From NCBI GenBank assembly GCA_037042915.1, contig CM073193.1:4650001-4714000 (forward strand): 64,000 nucleotides of DNA, read 5' to 3'. The DNA is from Auricularia sp. M13 (Eukaryota > Basidiomycota > Agaricomycetes > Auriculariales > Auriculariaceae). This document shows positions 27,127 through 62,397 of the stretch, piece by piece (the first letter of the stretch is position 1; every line of letters begins with the position of its first letter). Under the pieces are notes generated by a model, which had not been told where the DNA came from, did not search any database, and saw only the letters and a list, made by a program, of their open reading frames with translations. A program made the translations under genes and the position numbers.

Positions 27127-27134
27127 CGAGACAC
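27127..27134. repeat. target-site duplication, left copy (CGAGACAC)
   Basis: The identical octamer is at 62390-62397. Joining the left flank to the right flank through one copy regenerates a repeat unit whose sister copy is present, uninterrupted, at about 62463-62520. Confidence 0.75.
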
Positions 27135-27295
27135 AATGGTACCGGGAACTTCCGGTTAAGCGGAACCCGGACTTTCTGCAGCACACCGGTTAAGCCAAAT
27201 CCGCACTTTTGGACAAAATCGTGTGCTCACCGAGCTCAAGCGGATCGTATCTAGTAGTCTAGCAGTATTATTTGAACCGCTTGAGATCGCTTAGG
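27135..27295 (+). repeat. left terminal inverted repeat
   Basis: Aligns, with substitutions and small gaps, to the reverse complement of about 62215-62389. Shared blocks are GTACCGGG, TTAAGCGGAACCCGGACTT, CCGCACTTTTGGACAAAATC, GTATCTAGTAGTC and ATTATTTGAACCGCTTGAG. Confidence 0.75.
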
Positions 27296-27540
27296 AACGC
27301 TTCGGTTTCGCTTAGCACCGCTGACGAGGAACTCGTGTATAAACCTGAAACCGCTTGAGACCGCTCAGGGGCACTGGAAAATACTATATAATGCACTCAT
27401 GTTGCGACCGCTTGAGACCGCTTGAGACCTCTCGAGTCCTCTCGAGTAAGACCGCTTAAGTCGAGTCCGCTCGAGTCCGCTTAAGACCGCTTAAGATCGC
27501 TTAAGACCGCTTAGGATCGCTTAAGACCGCTTGAGTGATT
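27240..27540. repeat. left subterminal array of CCGCTTGAG/CCGCTTAAG motifs
   Basis: More than twenty copies of a 9-10 bp motif (ACCGCTTAAG, ACCGCTTGAG, TCGCTTAGG and variants), mostly one orientation and densest at 27400-27530. The matching array in opposite orientation is at the right end. Subterminal arrays like this usually bind the transposase. Confidence 0.7.
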
Positions 27541-27602
27541 CGGACTGCATGAGACCAGCACCTCCATACAGTCACTCTATTACGCTGCAACAGCACCATC
27601 AT

Positions 27603-30598
27603 CTACCATATACACTGCAACCATGCTGTTAGCTCCGCATGTCGGCTGATTGTGCACATACGGTCGGAATCAAAGGAGTTCCAGTCTTGACGCACACCAA
27701 ACCTCGAACAGGCAGTGGCTCGTAAAGTTCTCACCTCTTCCAGCAGTGAACCATAGAATGCAACCTTTTGTGATGCATACGCTGCTGCTCCGAGAGCATT
27801 GTACCACGCCCGCAACTCATCTGCAGGTTGGCGTTGCCATACTGGGATATCTGAACCATATGATTCAGCTGCTTGTGAAGCCTGCTGCTGCAGCTGTGCG
27901 GCCTCGCGTGTCTTCTCTTCGGAAATGCTAGACCAAATTGAGCGCATCTTCACGAAGTGCCGTTCGCATCGACCAAACTCGGCACCAACGATGGCAAGTT
28001 GTTCTGTCCAGCGCCACACATGACCTTTCAGTCGAAAATATCGAACACGATTATCTGCATGCATGCATGAGTTTGATCGTGAGCCGTAGGCATGCATAAC
28101 ATACCGTCATCGGTGAGCACGTCGAGCTTGTTTTTCTCAGCTTTTGAGATCAGGGATACATCAAGCTCGCCGCGCCAGAACCATGCAACAGCGTGTTTCT
28201 CCTTGCCAACTCCGAGAGGCTGAGGTTTATCCACGGGCGGGTGTGCTCGGAGCATTGTAGTATCAAGCGTACGGTATGTCGGATCATCCTTGGGCAGACC
28301 GAGTGCTCTGAGCGCATCGAGATGCTCCGAGTAAATCTGAACATAGGCCTTTTGTTTGGACTTCATTTTTTTCAGGTACGCCCTCGCCCTGGTCTTTCCG
28401 CTGGTAGTGTCGACCTGCTCTCGAGCTTCATCTGCGTATGAGCCAAATTGACGAATGCTAAATCGAAGGTTGGACAATGCGTTCTCTGCATGTGCCCTTC
28501 GCATCTCATTTTCCACGTGCACCAACCGGTCAGAAATGCAATTTTCCTTCCGCTCTTCTCCGCTGAACCACGAAGGCAGCATCAAGGGAACGTCCTCGGC
28601 GTGCGTAGCGTCGTCCAGGGCTTCATCGTCGTCATCCCCTGGACCACTCTCAACGTCAATGATGGCCTCAGCAATATCTGGCATATGTATCAGCTGCAAG
28701 CGGCGGAAGCTTGATATCCGTTCCATCAAGTTTCGACGCTTCAGACGGATTGTTTCCTGAGCCTCCTTGTCGTTCTTGTTCTGGCGAGCGTTCTGGGCTT
28801 TCAGACGGAGTCTCACTCTGGAATAGAAAACATGATAAGCGCGTGGATGTGTGTGGAATGCCACTTACTGATCTTCCACCAACTGCACACCTTTCGCCAT
28901 CATTCCCACAAGGCCACGCTTCCGAGCTTGGTTTGGCAGCAGAGCTCGCTCTTCCTCCTCTAGCCGGGCCACAATGTCCTTGTAGCTGGGCCCTGAATTA
29001 GCATGAGTTTAGAACCAGGAATCTCGGAGTAGATATGAAATACGATTAGCAGGATCCACACAATATCGGCCTCGGATGACGTTGTCCGTCACTACGGCTA
29101 CCTCGGTCGGGTACTGCTGCTCCCAGGCTGTCACTCGTTCTGCCGGCAGTGAACTGGCGAACTCTTCAAACTCTTCTTTTGTACGCTGAACGTGCTTATG
29201 AGCTTCCTGCGCCTGAGAGAATAAATATTTTCCTGTCAATATGTCAATTGTGCAAATACAGCAGCAGGGGAGAGCTAGGTAAAACTCACCGAGTCCCACG
29301 ACCTTGTTGAAGTTCCAGAAGTTGTGCACGTCGTTCAGTATGTCATGCCGATGGCCTGCGCCGGCGTCCCTGCATATGGCACCAGCGAGCTTGGTCTCTG
29401 CCCATGGCCTCTCTACGCCCTCACCACAAGCTCTGCCAGCGCCGGGGGTGTAAAGAAGATGATACAAATATTGACACTTCTCGCAGTGGCCTTGGATGTG
29501 CATCTTCGGAATTACCCAGACAAGCTCCTTTGCTATCTGCTCTATGTCCGCCCGGTCTGGAAACTCGGTCTTCAGGCGTCGTAGAATGTTAATGCATAAA
29601 GAGCAAGCTCGATCACTTGATAAGGCACGAGGAAGTTGGACGTCCGGCTTGGGACCTTGGGCATAGGCCCAGCCATGGTCGATCATATAGTATCTATACA
29701 AATTTTAGTTTGCTACGGAGCACCGGGCTCCAAACACCTACTTTTCCCCGAGCTTCAGGTCTACCATTCCCATACTGGGAAACATGCTATGGCGAATGCA
29801 GCAAACTGCCGATAGCCCAGATACCTCCCGGTCACTAATATCCTGAATTTTGTGCATCTTGTCGTACCCGGGGCATGATCCAGCTTCCTGTACATGTATA
29901 TGCGCTCGAACTCGGCAATTGCATCATAACTGGTTCAATCTTACCTGCGGCACGTCCTGGTTTTGTTTGATGTACTTCTCCCAGTCCTCTCGGCGAGGGA
30001 AAAATGCTCTCCCGTCCAGTAATGAGGTATCTCCAGCGTCTCGCGGCTTGACCTTCAGATACACCTTGAACGACGCGTCGGTGCCGTGCCAAAGTATGAA
30101 CTTGAACCTATTGTACAGGTCAACAGGCAATGTAAATGCACAAGGTCCTCTCATTGACCTGTGTTTCTCGTCTTCGACCGTGGCGTCCCAATCTGGCTGC
30201 AGATTAAAATCTGGCTCTGGACATGCAGGGCAGGCAACGATGACTGAGCCCGGCCAACGATTCGCAGGAAGATGCTTGTCTATCCCTAGAGCCTGGCCGC
30301 TACGAAGTTGCATCTTGAGCACTCGCCAACAACGACCTGCCCGCAGAAACCCTTCATATCCTTGCTGTCATCATCGTCAGCATACATGTCTTGGTCGAGA
30401 AGAAATGTCATACCCTCTGCCTGCCACGTTTGGTTTTCTGGCACACAGCTTGCCAGTAGTCCCAAGTCGATTTTTTACTCTGAAGCGACTCCAGATGCCA
30501 ATGCGTCATAAGCTCGAATGAATATCCAACCGTCGGGCGAGCAAATGTGCTGGGGAAAATCCGAGCCCGTACCAACTGCTGCACTAGGCTGGGTAGTT

Positions 30599-30600
<2 letters not shown>
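27603..30600 (-). pseudogene. KDZ transposase, 3' fragment downstream of the LINE insertion
   Basis: Continues in frame from the 5' fragment at 43276-44119. Clear exons: 30336-29945, 29887-29742, 29693-29290, 29232-29044, 28992-28869, 28817-28105, 28054-27603. Before these, one or two introns lie at about 30340-30480 whose borders I could not fix. Family marks in order: ACPACPEPDFNL, HGTDASFKVYLK (first catalytic Asp candidate), MVDLKLGEKY, SSDRACSLC (second Asp), PKMHIQGHCEKCQ, and CGEGVERPWAE (Glu) followed by GAGHRHDILND. The C-terminal half is long and helical. Without the LINE the frame would be open, so the break is recent. The transposase would act in the nucleus on the element's own ends. 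Confidence 0.85.
30586..30600. repeat. LINE target-site duplication, left copy
   Basis: AGGCTGGGTAGTTCC, identical to 43276-43290. It lies immediately next to the poly-T tract that is the LINE poly-A tail on the minus strand. Confidence 0.92.
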
Positions 30601-30644
<44 letters not shown>

Positions 30645-30824
30645 GGAGCGTCAGTACTGGGTACAGTCACATAGTGGTGCTCCCAGGTACTTATCTAACA
30701 ACAACAGTTGTTCGAGCTATCGCATCAACACATTGCGTTGATTGCTGGAAAGGGACGTCTCCGCCCGGGGAAATAGCCTTTAGCACGCCACGATGTTGGC
30801 AGTGTGGGGCTTGGAGGGGGCGTC
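30601..30824 (-). other. LINE 3' untranslated region and poly-A tail
   Basis: 180 bp of non-coding sequence after the ORF2 stop, ending in 41 A on the element's sense strand. No internal gene. Confidence 0.8.
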
Positions 30825-33800
30825 TCAACCGACGCCACGCGCAATCTGCTCTCCCGTACCCACTAAAACCCCGGGGCTCTTTGTACGATATTTTTCTGCT
30901 CCATGGAAGGTGTCCCGGTTTTTACGCCAGGTTTCCCATCGCAGGCCCGGATCCAGAGCTCTGTTTCCGTATTTGGATCTGTTTGTAAGACGGTCTTCCA
31001 GAGCCACGCGTCGACGCACGACCGCCATCCAGCGCTGCCTGATCTGGTCGTATGACCATCTCCAGTCTGGGACATCCCCGTGTGTCAGCCGTCGCTCGCA
31101 GCGCAGTTTCCATGCTAGGAGGGCCGATTCTGATGTGATAATGCGGAACGCTCTTGCCAGGCCGCGCGACTTTGCCCCGAACCATCCGCTAGGCCTGACG
31201 CTCGCGCATCCCCATATGGTACCGATGCTGCGCTTGATCTTGATCTGCTTGTGGTAAAAGAACCAGTCCGCCATTTTCCAGATGATCGCCTGGCCAGAGT
31301 CTGGGCATTCGAGCAGGATGTGCTCCATGGTTTCCAGGACATTGCACGTCGGACACATGGCTCGGGACTTCCAGGGCTCTGGCATTTTACTGAAGTAGCT
31401 GCCGACCTTATGTCCGTCGTGGATCCCTTTCCAGAGGAAGGCCTGCGCACCGCGCGAGAGGTCGCGGCTTGTCGATCCCTCCCAGATCTGCCGCGTGGTC
31501 GGCGTGAAGTCACACGTCGACTGGATTGCGGCCTTGATAACGCTCAAATTCCTGGTAGTAGCACGTCTGTGCGAGTGCGACAGAGCTTTGGTCTGCTTGA
31601 TCGCGCGATGAGCAGCCTGCTGGCGGACGTTGGTGGCTGAGATGCCTGGAATGTCGAAGGAGGCCCAGTGCATCGGGTCCAGCTGGCATTGCCAGCCCCA
31701 CTCTACCGCTGTCGACGCCCGCATTAGTTCTTCCTTCAGTTCTGCGTCATGGGCGAGGCTCCTGCGGCTTACGTGGGTAAAGACAGTCGGCGCCGCTCTG
31801 GAGCGCAGGGCTGCTGCTGCGGTGCGCAGTGCCCGAGCGTCTTGGCCGAATTGCAGCCAGCCGCTGGCCTCATTTTGGCGGAGCGACGTTGTCAACGCCG
31901 CTACGACCGAGCGCGCTGACAGTTTGATGGTGAGCGTGATGTCTGGGTCGGTCCTGCGGACTAGTTCACATATGGCTGTGGTGATTGCGAGAGTGTAGGA
32001 CTGCCCAAGCCCTACGCCCTTGCAGTGGAGGTCATTATATTCCCCGCCGGGGAAATGTGCCGAGAATCCGCATGCGGCCCTGTCGCTGTTCGCGTTGACG
32101 ACGCATGCGGCCAGGATTACCCGTACTTTTGCTCGTGCAGGTCCGGGGGCTTCGCGGACGCCGGCTTCGCGTCGCATTATGTCTGCGGTGCTTGCGGGGT
32201 TCAGTGCAAGCGAGGAGGCGAACATGCGACACAGGTCCTCAGGCCTTGACGCTGGGGCCGCTCGTTGGTCGAAGGCTATGTCCGAGCCCTCCTGGATAGC
32301 GTCCCGTCTCGTTGCTTCCAGGCTCGTCCACAGGCTGGTATCTGGATCGTATTCGGCCGTCGCGGTGTTCCACTTCTCCGCTATACAGCCCAGGAGATCT
32401 TCCGCGAGCTGCTGGCATTTGTGTGGGTTGCGGCAGCCCGTAGCTCGATCTGCGGTGCAGTTGTCGCAGGCGCAAGTGCGACGTTGGACATGGTCCTGCT
32501 CGTCAAGCTCAGCTATTTCCTCCAGATCTTCCACCGTGTTGACTTCGTGGATATTTCTGAGACACTTGAAGGCGCCTTTCTTATGTTCCAGCAGCTCTGG
32601 GTCCAGAGTGGCCGGGTGGGCCCATATCTGAGTTTTTTCCCGGATTGTCAGCGGTATGACTGGGGCATCTATTACCACGCCGTATTTTGCTGCCGTCTTC
32701 AGCATTTGCTTCAGGATAAAAGGGAGCTTCTGCATGTTCGGACGCCATGCTTGCGTGAAGACGTTCGCTCGTTGGTGGGGAGGGACGCGACCACTCTGGC
32801 TCTTCAGGATGGACATGCTGAATATGTGGTCAGCGAGGAAGGCCCACGCCGGGCGAGAGTCTGCTGGGGCCATATACGCGCTCAGCCAGGCCAGATACTG
32901 GGCTTCATTTCGCTCCGCTGCGTTGAAAAGGTTCATCCCGCCGTCGTGACGGATGCGATGGAGTGTTTCCATGTTAATTGGATGCCTGCGCGCGCCGGCC
33001 CAGAAGAAATCCAGTGTCATTTTGTCCAGGCGGCGTTCGATGCTCTGCGGCATTCCCTGCGCGGCTGTGAGGTATTGAGTGTGACCACCGATTATAGCTC
33101 TGGATATTATGCCTCGCCCATTGAGCGTGGGGCGAGATCGTTGCCAGAGTTGTAACTTCGCCTCTAGCTTGTCCATCACGGTCGACCATGCGTTCACGAT
33201 ACCTACGTCGTTTCCGGGCCATGCTCCAAGGATTCTCGTTGGCTCGCCGTCTCTGGCGATGCGTATCTGTGCTGGGAAGGCGATATCGTCGGCGTTCAGG
33301 CGGCGAGACTGGATGAGCTGAGCACGGTACGTCGGCGAGCCCAGCGGGATGACTTCCGTCTTTTTAACATTGAATTTCGCGCCAGATGCTAGGCACCAGT
33401 CTAGGAGCAGAGTGTTGAGGGTGGCGAAAGAGTCTGACGCTGCGAGATATACCGTCGTGTCGTCGGCGTAAAGAGAGGCTATGAGTTTTTCTTGCAGACC
33501 TTCGATTTGATATCCCCGCAGATTTGACCGTCTTAAAGCGATCGAAAGGGGCTCGATGGCCAAATTGAACAGGAGGCAAGAGAGGGGGTCGCCTTGGCGT
33601 ACTCCTCTTGTTACTCTATATTTCTCGCTGATGCAGCCATTTACGATGACCGAGGTGTGCGCGTTTTTGTAAAGCGACTCTACGGCCCGTACGAAACGCT
33701 CTGGTATGCCGAAACTTCTCAGGATGTCGTGGAGATAATCGTGTCTGATGCGGTCGTAGGCCTTCTCTTGGTCCAGGGCTATGATCGCACCGTTCTCCTC

Positions 33801-36116
33801 GCGTGCTTCTGCGTAGTCCAGGATCAGTGTCGTGAGCTTCGTTTGGTCCGTTATGCTCCTGCCTTTGACAAAGCCCGCTTGGGACTTGTGAATGAGTGTC
33901 GGGGCCACTCCGGCCAGTCTAAGGGCGAGTGCTTTAGTGTAAATCTTGTAGTCGGTATTTAAAAGGGTGATGGGGCGATAGTTTGCAATCTCGCTGCGCT
34001 CACCCTTTTTGTAGAGCGGGCACATCCATCCATCGGTGAAGCCAGTGCTGGCATCCACTCCAAATTCTTCAATGTCCAGAAAAACTTGTGTGAGGGCGTA
34101 GATGATGTCGAAGACCGGTGTGTCCCCTGCTTTCGCTGCCGAGTGCCGCCGCTGAAGATATTTCCACAGTTCGTATATTAGGCCGTCGAGGCCTGGTGCT
34201 GACCCGTTTTTCGAGACGCGCAGAGCGTTTTCTACTTCTTTGTAGGAGATCGGAGTGCCAAGTTCGGCCATTCCAGGTGTTGATGCGTGCGAATGCACGG
34301 ATGCCGTCGCTCTCGACCAACTGTCGAAGCGCGCGGCCGGGTCCACATCTAAGTCTGTCGACTGTATCCGGTCGTGATACGCTCTGGCGATGCTCGCCAT
34401 GTGCTTGGAGCATGTGGTGATCGCTTCCGGGCCCGCGTCCGGGATGCGCATGGCCGAGATGCTGTCTTTGGGAGCTAGTTCTTTGTGCCACCGGAACCAG
34501 CTTTTGCTCATACTCTCTGTGTCAATCCAGTTTCTGGTTGATCTATCACGGAATTTTGCCGCGGCCTGGTTGTCTCTAAGGGTGCCGATCTTGTCCTCCA
34601 CTGCACGTAGGGACGTGCGAATGTCGCTCGAATCGCCGTCGCCTCCGAGGTCCTTCAGTCTCGATACTAGTTGAGCACGCTCCATTTCTGCCGATTTCAG
34701 CTGTGAGCCTTGTGCGCAGATAAATTCCTTGGTACGTTTGCGAGCGAGCTCTGCAATACTCGACTTGAAGGCTTGCCACAGTCGTTGCGGGTTATGAGAT
34801 TCCGTGCGGTTCTCGTGCGATACTGCGCTCATGTCCTTCATGAGCGCCAGGCCCAGGGCCTGCACGGAGTCCTTGAAGGTCTTGTCTTTCAGGATGCTTG
34901 TCTGCATGGCCCACCGTCCCCGTCCCATTTCTGGGGCATCCAGGGAGGTGATTGAGACCTGGACACGACTGTGGTCGTCCTTCGTCAGTCCGGATATCTT
35001 CATATCCCAGTTTTTTGCCGTGGAGGCCAACCGATTTGGGAGGTAGATCCGGTCAATCCGTGACATTGCAGACCTGTCTGGTTTACGCCATGACCAGTCG
35101 ATCTCGTTCGGAAAGGTCGCTCTCCACGCGTCTGAAAGCTTGAGCCACGATCGCAGCTTGACGAGCGAGGCAGGGTTGTCAATTGCAGATAGTCTGGCCG
35201 GAAATCTATCAATGGGGTCTTCGACATTATTGAAGTCGCCCAGAATAATATCAGGCTTGGGGCATTCACAGTTTCGGGCCCGTAGCTTTTTTTGTAATTT
35301 TTTCCAGAAAGCATGGTTTTCTGCTTTATCCGTGGGTGCGTAGACTGCAAGTACAACGAGACTGTTGCCTCTATGCCATGGGAATTGTACCGCGATGGCA
35401 CGGCCCGCGATAAGCTCGAAGCTACGTGCCGTTTTGGTATTCGTGATGAGCTTATTCATAACTATTGCGACCCCTCCAGCACCCGTTGGGTTGTCGGGAA
35501 GAGCTGAGTTGAAAATTACAAGGTGCCTGTATAGGTCTTGTGCCTCCTCAACGTGAGACAATTCCATGTGTGTCTCCTGGATGGCTATGAGACCGATTTT
35601 CTGTGACCTCACGTCATCAGCGAGTTTACGCCATTTGTGGCTCCCACTGATTTTGGTGCCCCCGCGTCCGCGGATGTTCTCCGTAGCGATCACGAGATGG
35701 GCCTTTGTCCTTTTCATGCTGGGAGCCTGTGCTTGGCCGTTTGGGTGTGCGTCCGGGGTTGTGGAAACGCGGCTGGTCGTCGGGATCGACGAGGAGATGC
35801 TGCGCGAGCTCTGGGAGGAGCCGGGTCTTGATAAGACTTCAGCGGTACCGTTTGTGGGTGCGCTGTGGTGTCGAGCCGGTGTCGGCTCGGTGCCTTGTCG
35901 TGATGGCAGGGTCTGCGGTGGGCGTGGGCTGGTAGGCTCGGCGAGGAGATTCTCGCGTTGGTCGACCCTGTGACGGTGGGGCTGGTTAGCGATCCGCCGT
36001 GGAGGGGCCCGTACCTCCTGAGGGTCGTCAGCGAGTGCTGAGTTGGTCGGGTCATGCCTGCTGTCCGAGAGGCGCATGACTTCATTTCTGTTGGACGCCG
36101 CAGGCGGGGCGTGCAT
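30825..36116 (-). CDS. LINE ORF2: endonuclease, reverse transcriptase, RNase H-like region
   Basis: 1763 residues in one open frame. The apurinic-type endonuclease (about 141-392) has QETH (180), GDFNNVED (293), SRIDRIYL and the final Asp-His in TKDDHSRV (381-382). The reverse transcriptase (about 635-960) has APGLDG, NYRPITLLN, AGFVKGRS, ALDQEKAYDRI, VRQGDPLS and the catalytic YADD (about 883). An RNase H-like region (about 1430-1570) keeps the fold pattern but lacks the expected acidic residues (AAC and SARS where family members have TDG and TDS). A C-terminal zinc motif CPTC...EHILLECP follows. This is the catalytic protein for target-primed reverse transcription. Confidence 0.95.
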   Translation of the reverse strand: MHAPPAASNRNEVMRLSDSRHDPTNSALADDPQEVRAPPRRIANQPHRHRVDQRENLLAEPTSPRPPQTLPSRQGTEPTPARHHSAPTNGTAEVLSRPGSSQSSRSISSSIPTTSRVSTTPDAHPNGQAQAPSMKRTKAHLVIATENIRGRGGTKISGSHKWRKLADDVRSQKIGLIAIQETHMELSHVEEAQDLYRHLVIFNSALPDNPTGAGGVAIVMNKLITNTKTARSFELIAGRAIAVQFPWHRGNSLVVLAVYAPTDKAENHAFWKKLQKKLRARNCECPKPDIILGDFNNVEDPIDRFPARLSAIDNPASLVKLRSWLKLSDAWRATFPNEIDWSWRKPDRSAMSRIDRIYLPNRLASTAKNWDMKISGLTKDDHSRVQVSITSLDAPEMGRGRWAMQTSILKDKTFKDSVQALGLALMKDMSAVSHENRTESHNPQRLWQAFKSSIAELARKRTKEFICAQGSQLKSAEMERAQLVSRLKDLGGDGDSSDIRTSLRAVEDKIGTLRDNQAAAKFRDRSTRNWIDTESMSKSWFRWHKELAPKDSISAMRIPDAGPEAITTCSKHMASIARAYHDRIQSTDLDVDPAARFDSWSRATASVHSHASTPGMAELGTPISYKEVENALRVSKNGSAPGLDGLIYELWKYLQRRHSAAKAGDTPVFDIIYALTQVFLDIEEFGVDASTGFTDGWMCPLYKKGERSEIANYRPITLLNTDYKIYTKALALRLAGVAPTLIHKSQAGFVKGRSITDQTKLTTLILDYAEAREENGAIIALDQEKAYDRIRHDYLHDILRSFGIPERFVRAVESLYKNAHTSVIVNGCISEKYRVTRGVRQGDPLSCLLFNLAIEPLSIALRRSNLRGYQIEGLQEKLIASLYADDTTVYLAASDSFATLNTLLLDWCLASGAKFNVKKTEVIPLGSPTYRAQLIQSRRLNADDIAFPAQIRIARDGEPTRILGAWPGNDVGIVNAWSTVMDKLEAKLQLWQRSRPTLNGRGIISRAIIGGHTQYLTAAQGMPQSIERRLDKMTLDFFWAGARRHPINMETLHRIRHDGGMNLFNAAERNEAQYLAWLSAYMAPADSRPAWAFLADHIFSMSILKSQSGRVPPHQRANVFTQAWRPNMQKLPFILKQMLKTAAKYGVVIDAPVIPLTIREKTQIWAHPATLDPELLEHKKGAFKCLRNIHEVNTVEDLEEIAELDEQDHVQRRTCACDNCTADRATGCRNPHKCQQLAEDLLGCIAEKWNTATAEYDPDTSLWTSLEATRRDAIQEGSDIAFDQRAAPASRPEDLCRMFASSLALNPASTADIMRREAGVREAPGPARAKVRVILAACVVNANSDRAACGFSAHFPGGEYNDLHCKGVGLGQSYTLAITTAICELVRRTDPDITLTIKLSARSVVAALTTSLRQNEASGWLQFGQDARALRTAAAALRSRAAPTVFTHVSRRSLAHDAELKEELMRASTAVEWGWQCQLDPMHWASFDIPGISATNVRQQAAHRAIKQTKALSHSHRRATTRNLSVIKAAIQSTCDFTPTTRQIWEGSTSRDLSRGAQAFLWKGIHDGHKVGSYFSKMPEPWKSRAMCPTCNVLETMEHILLECPDSGQAIIWKMADWFFYHKQIKIKRSIGTIWGCASVRPSGWFGAKSRGLARAFRIITSESALLAWKLRCERRLTHGDVPDWRWSYDQIRQRWMAVVRRRVALEDRLTNRSKYGNRALDPGLRWETWRKNRDTFHGAEKYRTKSPGVLVGTGEQIARGVG

Positions 36117-46748: not shown

Positions 46749-46766
46749 GGCTGAGGCGTGATGGTA

Positions 46767-49184: not shown

Positions 49185-49477
49185 GGATGAGGGCGGTATT
49201 TAGCATGTACGGGCAGAGTCACACGGTCTGAGATGGGGGAAAAAATAATATGGCAGCTTCTGGCGATCCTGATCCCCAACTGGACGTCGTAGCATTCAGA
49301 TATCGCTTAAGCACCCATCGCAACGCCTTCGCGTTTCAGGCTTGCGGAATAATATTATTTCCGGGGTCCTTGCACTGTGTTCCTGAACCATTGCAACACG
49401 ATCAGAGGTTCATAATCCCCATAAGCTCGTCGCAGCACAAAGTCCGTCATCCCTCGCCACCCAGAAAATACTGTCGC
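49185..49477. promoter_or_regulatory. shared promoter of the zinc-ribbon pair
   Basis: 293 bp between divergent ATGs. Contains AAAAAATAATATGG-type AT-rich sequence near 49235-49250, otherwise nothing recognised. Confidence 0.45.
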
Positions 49478-50530: not shown

Positions 50531-50655
50531 ATAAGATATGCTCCAATCATGTGATTGCCAATAGTACGCTGCTTCGAGTTAGCCTGCCCCTATCTCAACA
50601 GGCTATATAATCCGACCCCCAGCGCTTGGACTAGTATTTCTCCCTTGTTCCCACC

Positions 50656-51045: not shown

Positions 51046-51173
51046 CCAAAGGTCTACATAATTAAAAGTAGCTTACCTCGTAAATTTTGGTTGGACACCG
51101 AGCGTTGTAAACCAGCGGTGAATATGGAAATGAAAAAAATGAAATCTTTATGATATATCTACATGGTTGAAAA

Positions 51174-53715
51174 CTACGTGTGGACCTTGTAATATGCACG
51201 CAATTCGTCCACAGTAAGTAAATTGGCCCATGCTAACTCGTTCCAACTTTTGGCAACCTTCAGATACTCCTCCTTCTCCCGCTCGGTCACGAGACTGTTG
51301 AGACACCGTTCACCGGCCGCACGCCAGCGGAACAGACCCCCCGCGGTGTAGAATGTCCAGGAGCTGCGACTTTCGCCGGGTCGCAACGGTGCATTACCGT
51401 GGGTGATTAGCGCGGACATCACGAACAAAATATCTCCCGGGCGAAATTCAAGCACCAGATTTGGCTCCTTCATGATGAAGTGGCCGGATGTGCGTGCGTC
51501 GTAGTCGCCGAACGCCATGATAACACAAATGCCTTGCTGCAGGTTCATAGCATCGCGATGGAACACAGTCGCGACCTAGAGCAATGCAAATCTACATTAG
51601 ACACGGGACATTACAATGCGAAGCACAGTCCCGTCAAGACTGTACCATCGCGATGTGGAAGTGTAGGTACCTGCGGGCCGAGGTTGAAGGTCGTCGCCGC
51701 AAAGTAGTAATTAAAGTCGTCCGTGTCGTCGTCGTCGAGGCGAAACGCACTGTTAAGATCGAGATCTTCGTTCAACTGCCGATACACCGCCATGACCTCT
51801 GGGAATAGATCGTCCGCACAACCTGGAAGCAGCATAAGAAGATGTGCAGCGACAAACAGCGCGACGCACTCTGCATATGCTTGATGACCCGGCGAACATG
51901 CTCATTCTTGAAGAACGCTGCCAGGAGACGACGGTTGCGCGCCTCGCGTTGGGTGGGACGACGAGCCCCATTGCGACCTATGTCCGTAGAAAAAGGAGTG
52001 GGCTTCTGCAGGGGAATGAGTACAGCACCTGCCAGAAGAATAGGACGCACCGTCTGCCCCCCTCCGAATGAAGTTCCAACCTGGCACTTCGCAAACGCGC
52101 CGCGCGAGTTCGTGCCCGCCACATTCTCCTTGTGCTGGATGTCCAGCTCCTCGCGCAGCTGCACCAACAGATCGCCTGTCTTCTCCTGCGATTCGCGCAG
52201 ACCGTCCGCTTTGGACACTGTTGCCATGGCCCCAAAGAGACGTCCGAACTTGTCGGTGAGCAAAATGCCGCTGGAGAACTTCAGCACATCAAAGCCCAAC
52301 ACGACAGCACACTCACTTGTCGTTTGAAGGGACATATAGCGCACCGCCGTCGACAAGCTGTCGTACCATGGGCGCAACGTCAGGGTGCAGGACTGGGTTC
52401 TTCGGGCTGCTGGACGACGACGAGCCCAACTGTGACTCCCGGTACTTGGACGGCGCGGTGAAAACGCTCTTGCCGGTGACGTGGGTCTTCACGTTGATGT
52501 TGGCCTCGATGTGCACTGCGCGCTGAAGGACTTTTGCAGCGCGAGCAGGCTTGGCCGCAGAGTTTGCGCGCTGCTTGGCGCGGTGACGACGGGCGCGTTC
52601 GACCTGCGCTGGAGTCTTGGGTTTGGGTTCCTTGCTATTCGCAGCAGGTTGAACAGGCTGTGCGGCCTTGACGACCTTCTTCTTGCGCGAACGACTCTTC
52701 TTTGCATCGGCAGTTGGCTCAATGTCGCCCACGCGCGCCGACTTGCGTGGACGGTCTGCAATATCGGGCATAAGCACGGAGTAAGAGCATTAGAACTGGG
52801 GCATACCCTCATGAGACATAACATCCGTGGGTGCGGAGGTACGCTTTTTGCTCAACTTGCCTACGATGTACGCGTGAGCGTTAATGAACTTGAAGCTAGT
52901 AGATATTACGCACGACGCTGGGTGTAATGCAGTACGCGCTCCGGAGCCATAAGAATGTGACGACCATCTCCAAGCGCCATAGTCTGACCTGATTGGTGTG
53001 AGCATGGCGCGGCGATTGCTACACGTAGGAGAAAGAGCTCACCGTTGCGGCTCCTGGTCAACGTGGTGCGCTGAACGTGTGAAGCCGTAGTAGCGTGGAG
53101 AGGCGTATACTCGGCACGCGCCAACGCGGACAGAGCTTGTAGCTCAACGAAGGGCCGATACTTGGGCAGCTGGACGGGGACGACGGGGGCGACTGTAACC
53201 ACGTAAGTTTCAGTCCAGGAGTCAGTGAACATCGTACATGTAACTGCAGATGGCGGCGCATGGGCAAGAGCTATTGGTGATGACAAATCAGTACATGAGC
53301 ACAAGAAGCCAGAGCAACACACCGTTGTTGCGAGAAGCGACACCGCGTGGACCAGCGGTATCGCGACGACCAGCGGTAGCACGGTTGGTGGTGCCTGATG
53401 CACGTCAGTAATGTCTGGGAAGCGAGCGCTAAAATGTGGCACACCCTTGTGCTTGCGCAGCGGCGGTGACCAGCTATCGTCAGTGCCCGACTCTGAAACT
53501 TCGTACTCGGATCCGGAATCCTCGATGTCTGGTTGAACGGCATAAAAATCTACCTCGGGCATGAGGCGCGTTGCGAATGCAGGGTCGGCGTGGGGGTAGA
53601 CGTCGCGGGCGGTGAAGCCGTCAAAGTCGCTGATGGAACTCGCCCGAGACACAAGGTCGAAGTCTGCGGAGATAACGGGCATCCCGTCAACGACGCGCCC
53701 GTTGCGAAGTTCCAT
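51174..53715 (-). CDS. TET/JBP-family 2-oxoglutarate/Fe(II) dioxygenase
   Basis: Seven exons (53715-53043, 52988-52914, 52860-52807, 52755-52317, 52270-51870, 51822-51671, 51575-51174) give 731 residues. The N-terminal 240 are variable; residues about 250-400 are Lys/Arg/Ala-rich and DNA-binding in character. The catalytic double-stranded beta helix is in the last 300 residues: RGAFAKCQVGTSFGGGQ, a helical insert, NYYFAATTFNLGPQ, the iron ligands His604-x-Asp606 in FHRDAMN, distal His657 in LITHGNAP, and 2-oxoglutarate-binding Arg668 in GESRSSW, then YTAGGLFRW. These features define the fungal TET/JBP group, which oxidises 5-methylcytosine or thymine in DNA. All key residues are present, so it is probably active. 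Exon 1 may hide an intron. Confidence 0.88.
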
Positions 53716-54244
53716 GTCGTTGGTGGTAGGGGATTACTGGGTCGGGCAGGACGCAGTATCCCCTTATATATGGCTGCGATGTGCATCTCGCGCGAGGAGT
53801 CGGATTTCGTCGGCCCGCACGCTTCAGGGGATGGAGCATGATTTGCGAATGCCGTCTAAAGTGGGCCGAAAAATTAGTGCTACCACTACAGGTTGCCTGC
53901 GCCAGCTTACACGGAACTGCATACACAACAGTTTGGTCGTGACGTTTTGCCCATCAACTCGCGGACTTCGAGCGCTTCAGTGTCTCGGAATATGTGGCCA
54001 CAGAACTGATCAATGTTTGACACGGGGTTTGGGGTCTCCAGGATATGCGGCGGGCCGAGAACATCACCTGCGATCGGGCTGATGCCCACGAAACAGGATC
54101 ATGGAAGCTCGGCACTCGCCAAACAGCAGTAACGATCGCGTCGAGCGTGAGAAGGCATTTAATGGATGATCTGCAAGACAGTTCCGGGCGCGACCGCGAG
54201 ATATACCAACGCATAAGAGAGCCGTTCACCCCCAATTTCCCTTC
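53716..54244. promoter_or_regulatory. bidirectional intergenic region, TET/JBP gene / RING-like gene
   Basis: About 530 bp between divergent starts. No gene or clear motif array; presumably holds both promoters. Confidence 0.45.
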
Positions 54245-56303
54245 ATGGCTAACGCAAATTCCCCCACAATGCCCGCCCGCACTTCGTCCTCCCGCATCCC
54301 AATCACGGTAAGCAAAACCATTGAGCTGGGCGCGAGATTGGGCTAATATCGATAGGTTGGGCATGTTCGGGCTGCAACGGACGTCACGAGCCGTGTGAGT
54401 CGGTTGGTTGCAGCTGACGTGTAGCTTACCCACATACACAGCGCGCTCTGTTGGAGGGTGCGGAGGAGCCTGTTGCACACCGCTCGTCATACGCCTCGGT
54501 GTGTCGTTTGCCATCCCTGACCATTACGTTGAACTGACGGTTCACAGCGCAAGCGCACACGCACCGTAGCATCCAATCCACCCAGCAGCACAATCGATAT
54601 CTCGTCCGACTCAGGCGAGGATCAACCACCTGTACCGCTGCGCAAGAAGGCTTTGAAGACCGTTCGTGCCCGGCAGCGCACACCCGACATTGTGATCTCC
54701 GACGTTGACGAGGCACCGCGCTCGCCAGAGCATTTCGGTTTCGAGTTGATCAATGGAATACTGGTGGAGATGGACACGGTAAGTGGACGAAGAGTCATGA
54801 AGTCTTACATCGGTTGCTCACCATTATCGCAGGACGACGGTGTTCAAGTGAAGAGCCATCAAGCTTTGGCCAGCGATGAGGTTAGCTGGCCTGGTCATTC
54901 TGTATCACATGGACTTACACAGACGGCGAGTGCAGGAAATCGATCCTCAGCTGACGGCGCTCTACGAAATGGTATGTTCATTTGTACTTCCTATGAGCCG
55001 AGATGTGACGCACGTTGGGCAGGAGGTTGACGCCCCGGCTACTGAAAAATGCGAGCTCGAATTGAAGAAAGCGCGACAGGATCTGGAGAAAACACGACAG
55101 GACCTGGAGGAGGAGGTATGTACATTCACAATCGAGAGATATACATCTAATCGATAATACGACTTGCAGCGCGAAGAAATGGAAGCTGTGCGTGGGGCCC
55201 AGCTATGCTTCTGCTTTCGACGTGTCCATAAATACTATGTGTTAGTTCGCGGTTATACGTCTAACTTATGTACTGACTTGATCCACAGCTTGTCGTGCGG
55301 GCATGGACCTGTCCATCTGAGCTGTTTGCAGACGGCCATGGCGACCCACACAGCGCGCATGATGGAGGCACGTCCTCCTAACTTGCTCCCCCCCGAGTGT
55401 CCGTATTGCCGTCAAGTGATGGCCAGCGGCCCTACGCACGTGTGGTCCATGGATGCTGCATGCGCGCGCGGTAACACTGACGATGATCCGGACACCGCTG
55501 AAGGCTACGACACTACGTGGCTCACGCGCGCCGTGTGGGGCGACAAATGGGACAATTTTGCACGCCAGCCGCGCCTTCACATCCGCGATGTTCCACCGCT
55601 CGAGTTCATCCCCGCTGCAGCTGCGCCAGATGACCCCGCCGACCCAGATTATTACCCCAGCGACAACGAATACGAATACGATGACACCTTCGACGACAGC
55701 GACCACGACATGGAGCAGCAGGCAGCAGACGATGGCCCCGAGATGCATGAGCTCGTCGTCGAGATTCCCGTGCCTCTTGCGTTCTTCAACAGCTTCCCCC
55801 GTGTTCTACAACTCGAGCCGTCCGTCCCACAGGCGACCATCGATTTGCTCACTGGGGGCGAGGATGAGTTTGCGTGGGTCGACCAGTACAAGGACGTACT
55901 GGACGGGACGAGCGGCGACCCTGAGCGCACAACCCGCCAGCTCATGGACGCTTGCCGCGAGTCCCGGCTTGCAAAGCTGAGGGATTACCTCCCGGTCCTG
56001 GAGCAAGGCATACTCGTGGACGGTAACAACATGCTCGGGGTCACACGGCTGGGCCGAAATGTGCTGGACCTGCTGACGGGCGGTGAGACGGAGCTGAGGT
56101 ACACGGTCCTGCGAAATGCTTACGCCGTCGATGGTGACGTGCCGAAGCTCACGGACATGCACGACAGACTTTCGGTGCATGTTTTTGAACGGATCGATCT
56201 TTTGCAGCCCTATCTGCCGCTGCTGAACGTAGAGAACATGCGGCAGCTCCCGCCGTACATTCGTCGCGACGCACACGGGGCACTGCATATTGTCCCTGAG
56301 TAA
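54245..56303 (+). CDS. RING-like zinc-finger cargo protein
   Basis: Supported exons: 54245-54307, 54548-54778, 55023-55115 and 55170-56303. At least one more exon lies at about 54855-54972, with borders uncertain. Order: short Ser/Thr head, basic run KRTRTV, a SUMO-interaction-like motif IDISSDSGED, another DIVISDVDE, then a coiled coil (CELELKKARQDLEKTRQDLE). A RING-like cluster (CFCFRR..., LSCGHGPVHLSCLQTA..., ECPYCRQVM) and a long acidic region (about 55640-55740) complete it. This resembles a SUMO-targeted or chromatin E3 ligase; ligase activity is inference. A stretch at about 55220-55286 looks intron-like, but its removal would break the frame. Confidence 0.6.
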
Positions 56304-58645
56304 TACATTAGTATGTGTCCATGCCCTATATACACAATTACCGTGACCGGCCGTGGCGCTTGAGCACTCTCCAGAGCTTGCACAGCTGGCCCGAACCCGT
56401 ACAGCCAACACCGAGCCGCCTGAGTCGCCATGAACGGGTCGCACTGAGATGCCGGATGACAAGTTGCCGGTGTACACTTGGATGCCGGTTGACCGCCGGG
56501 CGCTTGGGACTTCGCATTTTGAGCCAGTTTCAAGAATTCAGCGATCTTGTCTGGGTCGGTGAGCTCACGTATCATGAGCACAAAATAAAGTACCTACAAG
56601 AGCTTGGGCGGGCACGTTGCCCAAGTGCCGTGCAACGTGTGTCATGGCAGTCCGCTGTTTGCCAACGGCCAGAGGAAGGAAAATGGAGATAGTAAGCGGC
56701 GGCCTCGAACAAGGATAATTGACGCATATACACCTTGATTTCTCACGACACGATACAAGTTGCACTGCACCATATGCTCTCTACTACACGCTCTCACGGG
56801 CTGCTCGTTGTCTCGCTCATCTTGCTCGTCGCCCGCTCGTCGCCCGCACTCGTCGTCGCTCGTCGCCCTCGCTCGTCGCCCGCGCTGCCCACGCTTGTCG
56901 CTCATCACCTGCACTCGTGGCCTGGCCTGCGCTCAAGATGTCCCTGCACTCGTGCCTTTAAAGACGTGAGTATCAGAGATGCGCATCGACCTGCGCCTTA
57001 CAGTGTTGCATCGTCAGATACTTGATTGCGAACGTCAGATCATAGGAGGAGCTCGTCGCGCGCACATCGCCTGCGCCTGCGTTCGCGCTCATCGCCTGCG
57101 CCTGCGTTCGCGCTCATCGCCTGCGCCTGCACTCGCACTCATCGCCTGTGCCTGCACCCGAGCTCGTCGTGTCGTCCGAGCTCGTCGTGTGTCTCGCGCT
57201 CATCGCCTGCGCTCGCGCTCATCGCCTGCGCCTGCGTTCGCGCTCATCGCCTCCGCCTGCACTCGCGCTCATCGCCTGTGCCTGCACCCGAGCTCGTCGT
57301 GTCGTCGGAGCTCGTCGTGTGTCTCGCGCTCATCGCCTGCACTCGCGCTCATCGCCTGTGCCTGCGCGCGAGCTCTTCACGCCTGCGCCCGAGCTCGTCG
57401 CGTCGCCCGAGTTCGTTGTGTGGCTCGCTTTCGTGTGGCCCGCGCTCATCGCCTGCGTGCCTGCGCTCACGCTCTTCGCATCGCCCGAGCTCTTCGCCTC
57501 GCCCGAGCTTGTCGCCTGAGCCCACGCTCGTCGTGTGGCCCTCGCTTGTCGCGTCGCCCGAGCTTGTGGTGTGCGGTCGTCGCCGGCGCCGGCGCTCGTC
57601 ATGTTCGCGCGCGTCGCTTGCGCCTGGGCTGGTTGTGTAAATTGAACTCGTCGCCTGCGCCCATGCTTGTCGTGTAGTTCGCGCTTGTTGCCTGCGCTCG
57701 TGTGGCCCGCGCTCGTCGGCCTGTGCCCGCACAAGTTGTGATCGCAACAGTTAGTAGGGCCCACACCGCGACGCATTCTGTACATACCATGGGCAGATCC
57801 AGGATCGAAGGCCATAGATGGTGAATATAATCGAAAACTTGAGTTCTGGGGGCGGCTACCAAATGGCAGCGGCCCTGGATGGCGCGATCTTGGTCGGCGG
57901 GGCGCAGACGATAGCGCCCATGAATGCGATGTGATCAGCCGCCCCCAAATGGGAGCAGCCCCGAGTGACCTGTTACGAGCGCCGGTGGTGCACTGGAAGA
58001 GGACGGCGCAGGGCTCAAATGAGCCCAACGCCCGTGGTGGGTGGTGGTGGTGCGCGGTGAGCGGACGAGGGGGAAATGGCGGAGTCCAATTGGACTCCGA
58101 CATCCAAAGTCCCGTCTCGACTCCCAAGTCCCGCCACCGCACCGACAACCACCGCGAGCCGCGCCGCGGGCCTGCTATCGCCACGCACCAGCGCACACAT
58201 TTGTGGGCGCTGGTCCCCTTTGCGTACACTCATTTGAGGGTGCGCAGTCACTGGACCCACGACGACTTGGCCAAACGAGGACGCACCGTCACCGACGACC
58301 AGTGCGTCTTATACGACCACCATACGCCACCATTCTTATTTGAGAGTGGTGGTAGCCCAGGCTGGACACCATTTGGAAACGGTAAGGGTAATAGAAACTC
58401 ACTGGCGAGGTGCTAATGCTCGTAGCGCCACGCGACTCGTTGAGCAGCCTGCGACACGTCGACCTCGCGACACCACGGCCGCCACTCTAAGACCCCAAGT
58501 ACCTGCAGGTCGTGCTGCCCGGGAACACCACAACATCTTATTTTCTACGGTATCTACCTCGCCTGCGATGTAGCACTGCACCAATGCTGACTCGTTCGCC
58601 AGCGCGCGCACTGACGCACACACATAGCATCGGCCCACATCCGTC
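56304..58645. other. 2.3 kb repeat-rich gap, no gene supported
   Basis: Contains a low-complexity block (56790-57745) and ordinary-looking sequence on both sides. Long open frames on both strands across the block arise from repeat composition (Arg/Ala/Ser-only translations). A possible short minus-strand exon at about 56300-56580 (ELTDPDKIAEFLKLAQNAKS) cannot be tied to a gene. Confidence 0.5.
56790..57745. repeat. GCTCRTCGCCTGCGC-type low-complexity/minisatellite block
   Basis: Irregular tandem copies of CTCATCGCCTGCGCCTGC and CGAGCTCGTCGTGTCG. A longer unit of about 125 bp is repeated near 57125-57250 and 57250-57380. Confidence 0.75.
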
Positions 58646-61600
58646 ATGGCCAGCGCTCAGGTAAGCTTCTCTTGGTCACCGTTGCAGCGGTGCATTAAAT
58701 ATTATCATTAGAACACGATCAACGTCGACGTCGACATGGACGACGTGAACGCGGCTGCAAGTAGTCAGGCCCCACCCGAGCGTGTGACCACCAAAGGCGC
58801 GGCGCAGGTAATGCTCAATTATGGCGGTTTTTTACTTCGCTAAGCTCATCTTTATTAGAATGCAGCTGACGAGCAGGCGCCGCACCGCGATGAGCACAGT
58901 GGTGCCGAGGACGCAGCCGACGAGCTTATCCCGGGCATGCGGCTGCGTCGGACTGAAGAACCCTGGCCTTGCCAGGTGAAAGCTGTTGCCTACGACCGGG
59001 CAGCACGTAGATATATATGGTCGTTTTCTGGTGGGGAGGACATCCCCGAACTGCCTAGCGAAGAGTTCCCGCGCATACGGACTGATTATCGACTCGGGGT
59101 CCACGACCCCATGCAGTACCCGCAGTTCTGGCAACCCACCGCCCCTCACATGGCGTGGATCGCGCACGTTCCTCGACATCGCGACCTGTACCGCCAGAAC
59201 ATCGTTGGCTACGTCCTCCAACGGGAAGATTGGAAGGCCATCGAGGAGGGGGCAGTGTACGGACGGCTACAGGGCCCCCTGCTGGCGCGTCTGCAAGATG
59301 CTTTTTTCGGAATCCATGCCGTTGTTCTTCCGCTCATGCGGGAGGCACGGACGCGCCTGCTGCTTCCCACCGCCACCATAAACGACTGTATCCGCCTGCT
59401 CTCCGATCTCCACACGCTAACGGCGACATTTCGTGAGACTGCGAAGCTGGTAACACGAGTACAGCGTGGCATCGCGGAACTGCGGGCGTTCTACCTTTTC
59501 AGGCTTGACGTCCGACACCATGTTGGCGACGAGCACTTTGTTTCGAAGTACATGTTCGACTGTGTCGGTGTCTTCACGACGGACAGAAGCATGGCCGATC
59601 TGTTGCACCGTCTCGGCATGCCAGTCTGGCTTGTTTCGAAGTCAATGCCGCAGGAGATGAAGAGGGAGGCCCTCCGGCCGCCCAGGGAGCACTGGCGATT
59701 CGTCGAGATGAAGCCTCTCGACTCTCTCGACGCCGATGGTCGCGACTGGCAGGGACGGCAGTACAGCGAGTCTAACACGCCACCGCTGTACGACTCTGAC
59801 GATGGACGTGCCGGCACACCGCAGCCTGAAGGGGTCGATACTCCGTCGAGCGATGCTCGAACTGGCCGCCGTGGAACGACAGCTCCACCACCGGCTCGAT
59901 CCTCGCGCGCGCGGTCCAAGTCACCTGCTCGCCGAGCAGCACGCGTGCGACCGCGTTCGCCCGCCCGCGGTTCATTCTGGTTGGCACCGACGATAGATTT
60001 GTCGGGAACAACATACGACGTGCCACAGTACGTGCTGCGAGAAGAAGCTCGTCTAAACGGTGTGCCATCTCTGTCTTGATGCTTTATTTACTGATTCATG
60101 TTCGCCAGAGAAAAGCCGGTCGCATCGACCTCCGGAGGCCCCGCCGGCCTGGTGTCCTAGGACCTGGGCGACAGACCCTGGACAGCAAGCGACCCAACGA
60201 GACGATTTGCCGGCATGGGTGCCTCAAGTCCCGGCTTGGCTCGAGCATGTTGCGCGCTCTGTGGACCGCTCACTCTCGCGCGAATTCCGCTTGTGCGCAC
60301 CCGATACCGTACACCCAGTGCCACAGGAACGCTTCAAGCAGACGCTTCAGTACACGCTGCCGCCGTTCCATATGCTACTGGCAAAAAATCCAGGACGCAT
60401 GCGGTATCTCTTTCGGTCGTGGGCTGCGTTGCGGGACTTCTGGCTGCGACGTATTCTTCGAGAAGGATTCTGCGGTCTTCCCGCGGGCACTTGGAGGAAG
60501 GTCTTGGACGACAAGTACAGCATGGACAGCGCGCTCAAGGCCTGGATCGATGTCAACTCGAAAAACGTGCATGCGATGGCAATGGACGTCGACGTGGGCG
60601 ACAACACCGGTTCGAGGGACATGACCACCGGCAACAACACAGCGACAAGCACACCGGAAGCGGGCGGCATGGGCTCCAAGGTCAACGCTGCACTCGCCTC
60701 CGGCGCCGCCTCCATGGCGACTCCAGCGCCGAATGACAGCAACGTCGCTGTGCCCAGTCTGCCCGCATCAACCCAGTATACCCGTGTGCCAGAGGTGGGC
60801 GAAGATCTGCTGATCCGTGCGGTGCGAAGCAATGTAGAGCCCGAAGGGTGGATGGATTGGGCGGTGCAGGGGCAGATGTTCTATGAGCGCGAGCAGTTCT
60901 CGATGTACCTTGTCGACGATGCCGATCGCGAGCGTGTTGTAGCGTCGCAGGGAGAGTGGGATGAGTTCTGGGATTACGAGAACCGCCGTATCCTCCTGTT
61001 CAAGAAGTCTTCGCATGTATTGTCTGAGCCTGGCGTCATGCCCGACGCGGAGATCTTGCTGAACGAGGCGTGCCTAAAGTGGCATAGCTCGATAGCTGAT
61101 GCAGACGGTCTCGCTCAAGCATCTCGGGCGATGTGGATGGCCACTGTGTCCCTCCATAAGGTATATATTTTATCGCTCATAGCACTCAAGGTACTCATGA
61201 TTTAAGACTTCAAACAAGGCCGCTTCCAGTTCAGTGGCTGCTGAGCCTTCACCTCCAGCTCGTGCACCGGCAGATGCTCCCGCACATGACAAGCGACCGG
61301 CGCCAGACCCTGTCTATGGGTATCATCCTGAGGTGCCCAACGGGCACCGCATCAAATCCTTCGTCATACGTCAACAAGAATTACCACTCGAACGTCTTGA
61401 CGAACCTGAAGTGCGAGCCTTCCTCATCTGGGAGCTGCAAGAAACGGCCTTTCGATTTCAGCTTCGCGACCTTGACGTGTACATTCTCAAGTCGCTGAAG
61501 TTGTGGACGCCGTCTGTCCAGAAGAGTAGGGAAACATTATGGGTGAATTGCTGGGGGGGAGAGGATGGATTTATACCGCTCGGTTTGCACTGCCCGCTGC

Positions 61601-61848
61601 ATACGGACCCTGACCCCAAGAAGCGTGCTGCGAGCATCTATAGCCTCTGGAAGGTTGTACGCGCTTGGCCGCGGTGCCGCGAGGTGCCCAATCTACGGCA
61701 ATACACTGCCACGCAGGGTTTATCAGTTGAGACCCTGTTGGTGATCGAGCGCGAGGTCTGGAGTTTCTATGCTCAATCCTACTATGATTACTTTGGCATC
61801 CTGCCTGCAATCCCCACCTGTATGCCTGCCAACCCATTTCTGTCCTGA
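58646..61848 (+). CDS. 997-residue orphan cargo protein
   Basis: Five exons (58646-58660, 58712-58807, 58859-60059, 60109-61160, 61219-61848) join in phase. Exon 1 encodes only MASAQ. Residues 1-70 are acidic. A large structured alpha/beta region (about 75-330) starts with MRLRRTEEPWPCQVKAVAYD. A Ser/Arg/Pro-rich basic linker (RSSRARSKSPARRAARVRPR) lies at about 415-440. Further structured regions include YLFRSWAALRDFWLRR, MDWAVQGQMFYEREQF and the C-terminal WNxxG-rich segment (LWVNCWGGEDGFIPLG). No known domain is recognised. Position at the right end of the element, next to the terminal repeat, suggests an element-encoded function. Confidence 0.75.
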
Positions 61849-62040
61849 TGTAGACTCGTGTCCCGATCGCCGTCTCTGTTTTGATGAAACTCGTTCAACG
61901 TTCTCTCGCCATGCTGAAGCCTTTGGCTGGTTTGTATATAGGTCTGATCTGCCGTCAATGCAATGCCACCTGACCCGCTTGTGTCCTGCAGTCCCTCAAG
62001 CTGTGACAGCTACAGGTAAGCCATCACATTGCGTGCTTAC
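61849..62040. other. 3' flank of the orphan gene
   Basis: No gene; leads into the right subterminal array. Confidence 0.4.
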
Positions 62041-62260
62041 ACTCATTGGCACCGGTGGATCTAAGCGTTCTCAAGCGATCCTAAGCGGTTTTAAGCGGTC
62101 TCCTCGATTAATAGAAAGTTCAACCACAACTTCTCAGCGGTCTTAAGCGGTTGCGAGTGTGTCTCAGCGGTTTGTACACAAGTTGGTCGTCAGCGGTTAC
62201 AAGCGGTGCTAAGCGAACTCAAGCGGTCCTAAGCGAACTCAAGCGGTTCAAATAATATTG
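62040..62260. repeat. right subterminal array of CTTAAGCGGT motifs
   Basis: About fifteen copies of CTTAAGCGGT/CTCAAGCGGT/CCTAAGCGAA, the reverse complement of the left array motif. Confidence 0.7.
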
Positions 62261-62389
62261 CTGGACTACTAGATACATTCCGCTTTCGTCCGCTTAGCCC
62301 TCGATTTTGTCCAAAAGTGCGGGTTCCGCTTAGAACGATTTTGTCGCGAAGTCCGGGTTCCGCTTAAGCTAAAAGCCCCGGTACTGCTG
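62215..62389 (-). repeat. right terminal inverted repeat
   Basis: Reverse complement aligns to 27135-27295. It carries an extra internal duplication of the GCGGAACCCG...GACAAAATCG block compared with the left end. Confidence 0.75.
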
Positions 62390-62397
62390 CGAGACAC
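62390..62397. repeat. target-site duplication, right copy (CGAGACAC)
   Basis: Identical to 27127-27134. Confidence 0.75.

Follow-up and report, generated by a model that had tools for sequence, protein, structure and literature searches.

A block of about 35 kb in the genome of Auricularia sp. M13 raises the question whether it is one transposon that carries a set of genes with it, or a stack in which independent mobile elements and genes of the host happen to lie between two related repeats. The block is part of a window of 64,000 nucleotides (C1:4650001-4714000; the searched genome comprises 52.1 Mb on 14 contigs), to which all coordinates given without a contig label refer. Positions 27134-62389 very probably represent a complete cut-and-paste transposon of the KDZ superfamily, which measures about 23 kb when uninterrupted, encodes its own transposase with a CxC2-like zinc cluster and a KDZ domain, is flanked by a 7-bp target site duplication and carries a fixed set of eight further genes. 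A first-pass annotation of the same sequence had already proposed a complete KDZ transposon with cargo, a proposal borne out by a KDZ match above the curated cut-off, by the matching ends and by co-linear copies elsewhere in the genome.

Ends of the element and target site duplication

The whole element extends over 35,256 bp, and over 22,582 bp without a nested long interspersed nuclear element (LINE), in line with the size of about 22.6 kb given earlier. Its first bases, from position 27134, are CAATGGTACCGG and its last bases, up to position 62389, are ..TGCTG. As had been noted, the outer ends are related: the imperfect terminal inverted repeats at 27139-27345 (plus strand) and 62169-62389 (minus strand) display 77% identity over about 211 bp in an inverted alignment (27139-27345 against 62169-62384). 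The element is bordered by two copies of the target site duplication CGAGACA, at 27127-27133 and 62390-62396. At this insertion the match is one base longer, and CGAGACAC can be read at both edges (27127-27134 and 62390-62397), which agrees with the eight matching bases reported originally together with a duplication of 8 bp and boundaries at 27135 and 62389.

An uninterrupted sister unit of the minisatellite, situated at 62441-62578 (plus strand), serves as an internal empty-site control. When the flanks are joined after removal of one duplication, 127 of 135 aligned bases equal this unit, and of the 17 right-flank shifts tried, zero shift gives the top score (208, runner-up 206). The internal control put forward in the first-pass annotation is therefore sound. 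The two-base difference that it reported within 62463-62520 is present, accompanied by a one-base gap in the same interval and a few more differences outside it. The same annotation took this unit to fix both boundaries without another genome. The right edge stands at 62389, but the target base after the duplication is a C and identical to the first base of the element, so that the left edge cannot be placed to one base by the empty site and had to be set by sister copies.

At least eleven such copies are found in the remainder of the genome (A to J and a twelfth copy at C2:2290002-2312478). Both ends are readable in 11 of the 12 copies, the right end of copy F not having been found. Exact 7-bp duplications flank ten of these eleven, namely CGAGACA (window), CGACCCT (A), AGCAGGC (B), CTCGAGC (C), AGTTTGG (E), CCGCTGG (G), TCAGCAC (H), CGCAGGC (I), GCGCCAT (J) and CAATTTC (twelfth), while copy D matches at 6 of 7 bases; for random pairs of positions in the window, the chance of a 7-base match is 9.5e-5. 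Since copies A, H, I and the twelfth combine an exact 7-bp duplication with a different eighth base, the left edge is placed at 27134, the duplication is set at 7 bp, and a duplication of 8 bp was rejected. Taking 7 bp as the duplication gives an element with CA..TG termini, which are observed in 11/11 copies with both ends read. CAATGGTACCGG is present at one end in 12/12 copies, and the opposite end, read inward, shows CAGCTG in ten copies and CAGCA in the window. In copy B the inverted repeat measures 76 bp.

These data also bear on a Zisupton-type element, which would have an 8-bp duplication, true inverted repeats and a start at 27135. Such an element would be in keeping with the eight matching bases at the window copy, with the inverted repeats, imperfect as they are, and with the C that follows the duplication in 7/11 copies (window, B, C, D, E, G and J; P = 0.015 for at least 7 of 11, taking C at 28%). 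Moreover, Zisupton makes 8-bp duplications according to PMC12730594. However, in four of the 11 copies the match ends after 7 bases, and taking 7 bp is what yields CA..TG termini, which renders a Zisupton-type element quite unlikely. With the 7-bp duplication retained, the eighth matching base of the window copy may be due to chance or to a target preference for C, and some events may use 8 bp.

Twelve co-linear copies in the genome

A search with the interior DNA (43200-62389) identified ten other co-linear loci and protein searches an eleventh; as the searches score best candidates only, the count of 12 is a lower bound. The left end, recommended in the first-pass annotation as a probe for further copies, was searched as DNA (27135-27435) and retrieved only the element's own two ends. 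Copies with ends elsewhere, named in that annotation as evidence that would speak against its boundaries, were not encountered, since the ends of the 11 other copies match wherever they could be read. The other ten two-ended copies are 22,477 to 24,185 bp long. Copies A (22,954 bp) and B (23,262 bp, read whole) are co-linear with the window copy over their full length, the latter being a distant member with about 65-81% DNA identity to both where alignable. Each of the 12 copies contains one KDZ, one TET-like and one orphan locus, and matches to gene 5, the RING-like gene and the HMG-like gene are likewise present in every copy. Over a 1.7-kb cargo stretch, compared with copies A and I left out, copies C, E, F, G, H and J share 99.59-100% identity, and copies B and D are about 95.5% and 93.6% identical to this group. 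The presence of near-identical copies with differing flanks and duplications indicates separate insertions, some of them recent.

The alternative, a pile of mobile elements and genes of the host that are unconnected but nested between two related repeats, with the cargo outside any one transposon, would be compatible with the LINE and the foldback element that are indeed nested in the window. It is opposed by the eleven other loci with the same gene order, ten of which lie between both of the same ends and possess duplications of their own. Segmental duplication of such a pile fares no better, because the flanking bases read differ between copies. An origin of this kind is hardly credible, and a single transposon with cargo is the reading followed below.

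Individual copies show local peculiarities. In the twelfth copy (L104, L105), which has an exact 7-bp duplication, the ends are swapped relative to the genes, an arrangement that fits an inversion between its repeats. The right-end match of copy F (L061, C4 near 79.5 kb) breaks off at foreign sequence. Copy H (L064, C6 near 812.5 kb) departs from the family sequence about 211 bases into the locus, so an insertion is located in its left part. Over gene 8, copies A and B share 88% identity, against about 67-75% in the surroundings, and copy B has a left end 99.6-99.9% like that of E, F and J next to a cargo at about 95.5%; both patterns suggest exchange between copy lineages. Genome-wide, the KDZ profile yields 149 matches and 91 merged loci above cut-off, and KDZ elements are therefore very abundant in this genome. 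The KDZ, Plavaka and TET content by itself points to a basidiomycete, probably one of the Agaricomycotina. One further KDZ locus is situated about 7.5 kb past the right edge of the window (C1:4721454-4722141).

Transposase and cargo genes

The transposase gene, which reads leftward, occupies the interval between about 44.1 and 27.6 kb and is divided into 5' exons at 43275-44146 (minus strand; weaker beyond 43712), with the CxC2-like zinc cluster at 43296-43445, and 3' exons at 27603-30601 (minus strand), with the KDZ domain match at 29312-30094. The KDZ domain (PF18758) scores well above its curated cut-off (109.5 versus 26.6 bits; 88.4 bits for the frame 29012-29704), and the CxC2 match reaches 24.7 bits with an E-value of 2.8e-5, the Pfam cut-off being 27. 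Situated between zinc cluster and KDZ domain is the LINE (30602-43275, minus strand), which displays endonuclease and RVT_1 domains, a poly-T at 30601-30641 and a 16-bp target duplication, AGGCTGGGTAGTTCCT, at 30586-30601 and 43276-43291. Due to this split of its transposase gene the window copy is probably not autonomous and probably mobile only in trans. Two in-frame stops are found in the window transposase at 28313-29230, where copy B is open; an intron is possible at this position, as copy A is likewise out of frame there.

Besides the transposase, eight cargo genes were counted, six better supported and two weaker (genes 2 and 7), close to the seven or so proposed originally. Gene 2 (44427-45320, minus strand) encodes a Pro-rich, partly conserved protein, and gene 3 (45538-46772, minus strand, five-exon model) an HMG-box-like protein, whose match to HMG_box_2 (E 0.0017, 19.4 bits) lies below the cut-off of 22.4. 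Two Cys-rich proteins are encoded by gene 4 (47866-49163, minus strand; exon blocks without a joined model) and gene 5 (49232-51045, plus strand; last junction uncertain), the latter ending in 15-residue tandem repeats. The gene for a TET/JBP-like dioxygenase with the HxD..H residues kept follows at 51174-52789 (minus strand; four-exon model, stop to stop), next to gene 7 (52909-53733, minus strand), which encodes a small acidic protein and could be aligned only in part. Gene 8 (54533-56303, plus strand) consists of a RING-like frame (55158-56303; zf-RING_2, E 0.013, below cut-off) and an upstream frame (54533-55027), which probably form one gene; the upstream frame contains stretches resembling SUMO-interacting motifs. 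Gene 9 (58859-61848, plus strand; exons 58859-60059, 60175-61132 and 61230-61848) encodes the orphan protein. Between 56.9 and 58.3 kb no gene is claimed, since repeats are present and differences in copies A and B give no codon-position signal (44, 46 and 44 by phase).

The cargo is conserved as coding sequence. When window codons were compared with copy A and with copy B, an excess of third-position differences was observed in 11 of 11 cargo and transposase blocks. Against copy A, first, second and third positions differ at 119, 88 and 216 sites in the TET-like gene, at 98, 99 and 227 in gene 9a, and at 122, 98 and 193 in the RING-like gene. The ratio of non-synonymous to synonymous divergence (dN/dS) amounts to 0.11-0.35 where dS is unsaturated; saturation of dS is seen for the transposase, gene 9b and gene 2 against A. 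Genes 2 and 7 are the fastest evolving, with proportions of non-synonymous differences (pN) of 0.34-0.48, and the comparisons of gene 7 cover 136 and 222 of its 464 codons.

The two nested elements have features of their own. With 12.7 kb the LINE is seemingly long for its kind, and its frames comprise 1805 amino acids (endonuclease and reverse transcriptase) and 885 amino acids, the latter without a Pfam match. The foldback element, a near-perfect palindrome of about 725 bp (46765-47490), is located where the HMG-like gene starts and has TGATGG on each side, and its many genomic copies, at roughly 72-91% identity, are spread over several contigs.

TET-like protein, orphan family and known elements

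The TET model of the window matches Tet_JBP with an E-value of 4.7e-4 and 19.9 bits, below the Pfam cut-off of 34.9. Tet_JBP is also the best Pfam family in 8/8 relatives scanned (family copies A and twelfth and six other loci; L101 and copy D were left out), with E-values of 4.8e-5 to 0.018, all below cut-off. A family profile of 10 of the 11 aligned sequences (L101 left out) was searched against 177,635 PDB sequences; the four best of its seven matches are CcTet (8jkk and 7vpn, E-values 0.54 and 0.56) and NgTet (5cg8 and 4lt5, 0.62 and 0.76). Invariant in 10 TET-like sequences are H6, D8, H59 and R70, which correspond to an HxD..H triad and a subsequent arginine, both features of TET/JBP dioxygenases. 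The HxD..H metal triad of TET/JBP is described in PMC12730594, which further marks AG-type TET proteins by Gly/Ser at CcTET position 331 and Asp at 337, and PE-type proteins by HxE replacing HxD. As HxD is invariant in the 10 sequences, the PE type is excluded under this description. Nor is the AG-type signature present in the window protein, which carries Asn and Cys at the respective positions in an alignment to CcTet (Gly331/Asp337; counted by eye). An AG-type label for 19 Pfam-scoring TET loci was dropped, since L044 and L046 are without Asp337 by eye; these two were the only ones of ten fetched TET loci readable in frame, the other eight not being on the coding strand.

Several points weigh against the interpretation of the element and its cargo given so far. 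The TET, HMG, RING and CxC2 matches all remain under the curated Pfam cut-offs, the profile-to-PDB E-values of 0.54-0.76 are weak, and the window TET protein alone yielded no TET among its PDB matches. In addition, small frameshifts are found in the TET exon of several copies. The gene models are computational predictions, and some junctions failed (the last one of gene 5 and in the transposase). Values of dN/dS are rough, because dS is near or at saturation and frames were picked by tblastn. Finally, the C in 7/11 copies speaks to a small degree for a duplication of 8 bp that is not always kept.

The window copy, A, D and the twelfth have an open TET exon. In copies B, C, E, H and J the exon shows length differences of one or two bases, often in short runs; among near-identical copies, these frame differences may represent mutations or assembly errors.

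The orphan protein of gene 9 comprises 925 amino acids from stop to stop and 899 from the Met. For the 899 residues no Pfam family was found at E up to 1, and no Pfam match over cut-off was obtained in window gene 9 or seven relatives. A gene 9 profile produced no match with an E-value below 0.5 in the PDB, and a single-sequence AlphaFold model, with a predicted local distance difference test (pLDDT) score of 38, was uninformative on the fold. An alignment of 15 of 23 retrieved family sequences contains 14 invariant columns.

Within the genome, the last exon of gene 9 (206 amino acids) gives 72 matches at 69 loci, whose positions were compared with 1000 shifts of the whole locus set along the genome. 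A TET locus lies within 12 kb of 26 of the 69 orphan loci (shift mean 1.24, maximum 7) and a KDZ locus within 25 kb of 30 (shift mean 5.9, maximum 21). With the 12 family copies left out, 57 orphan loci are considered, of which 14 are near TET (shift mean 1.1, maximum 4) and 18 near KDZ (shift mean 4.9, maximum 18), so that the KDZ linkage of non-family loci, taken by itself, lies at the limit of the control. Conversely, 28 of 39 TET loci have an orphan locus within 25 kb (random expectation 6.5%). The link is strong but not universal, since 26 of the 69 orphan loci have no TET and no KDZ locus within 25 kb. Plavaka is not supported as a partner, being within 25 kb of 2/69 orphan and 0/39 TET loci (random 4.4%); this control used 50 of 87 rows, leaving out further pieces of included loci and the row C5:4280003, whose frame of 21,545 amino acids looks like a masked stretch.

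The distribution of the cargo also bears on whom it serves. Captured genes that benefit the host, as in a Starship-like element, would be under purifying selection, and the selection observed on the cargo fits either beneficiary. However, HMG-like matches are confined to the 12 copies (16/16 rows), matches outside them number three for gene 5 and two for the RING-like gene, all weak, and the orphan family tracks TET. Starships are likewise large cargo-carrying fungal elements; they differ by a tyrosine recombinase and by their occurrence in Pezizomycotina. The mark of the Starship tyrosine recombinase is DUF3435, and the only DUF3435 locus of the genome (C3:624825-625661, near 625 kb) is outside the element family, for which reason a Starship was rejected. 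Host-serving cargo thus appears unlikely, and the genes are treated here as belonging to the element.

Iyer et al. reportedly described in 2014 KDZ elements that encode TET/JBP together with a divergent HMG domain. They are said to share KDZ transposase, TET/JBP, HMG-like and further proteins with the present family, for which 11 copies give resolved ends and duplications. Kyakuja elements that carry TET in Agaricomycotina are reported in PMC12730594 to have 7-bp duplications, 5'-CA..TG-3' ends, no inverted repeats and an AG-type TET. The element resembles them in its KDZ transposase, duplication length, termini and internal TET/JBP gene, and differs in its imperfect inverted repeats and in the Asn and Cys at the AG-type positions. 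Because duplication and termini agree whereas the lack of inverted repeats does not, it is filed under the KDZ superfamily with Kyakuja-type termini and not as Kyakuja. With Zisupton it shares the superfamily and the inverted repeats, in contrast to the 8-bp duplication of Zisupton (PMC12730594). KDZ1, KDZ2 and KDZ3 of Cryptococcus neoformans, which were seen moving into a reporter gene (PMC12810828), likewise combine large size with inverted repeats and target duplications, but measure about 9-11 kb, contain a CxC1 domain and generate duplications of 4-8 bp; the accessible part of that report mentions no TET for them, and that of PMC8889193 does not mention KDZ. Among titles and abstract openings, neither a published 23-kb KDZ element with this gene set nor the orphan family was found, which is not a claim of absence from print. 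The family is new and well bounded; its kind, KDZ with TET and HMG, is already known.

In such an element, the KDZ protein would cut at the CA..TG ends beside the imperfect inverted repeats, by analogy with known KDZ elements, and the excised unit would reinsert with a 7-bp duplication, carrying the eight-gene package along. Activity of this sort is predicted from the sequence. The TET-like enzyme may oxidise methylated bases and thereby allow the element to escape silencing, as proposed for TET-carrying transposons in PMC12730594. Possible roles of the HMG-like and RING-like proteins are DNA binding and an action on chromatin proteins that are marked by SUMO, and both proteins, like the orphan, would serve the element and not the host. 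Tentatively, and with considerable doubt, the orphan could be regarded as an undescribed core component of TET-carrying KDZ elements, retained alongside transposase and TET in numerous dissimilar elements of this genome. Combined with a TET-like enzyme that lacks the 5-methylcytosine-holding residues of CcTET, it might then belong to a distinct transposon-borne chromatin-opening kit made up of TET-like oxidation, HMG-like DNA binding and a SUMO-guided RING ligase.

For a family of giant basidiomycete DNA transposons, the ends are now exact, the duplication is set at 7 bp and the conserved genes are listed, which turns the issue of which cargo is needed for movement into a direct question. The clustering of an unnamed protein family with TET and KDZ genes provides a lead on the use of transposon-borne TET enzymes.

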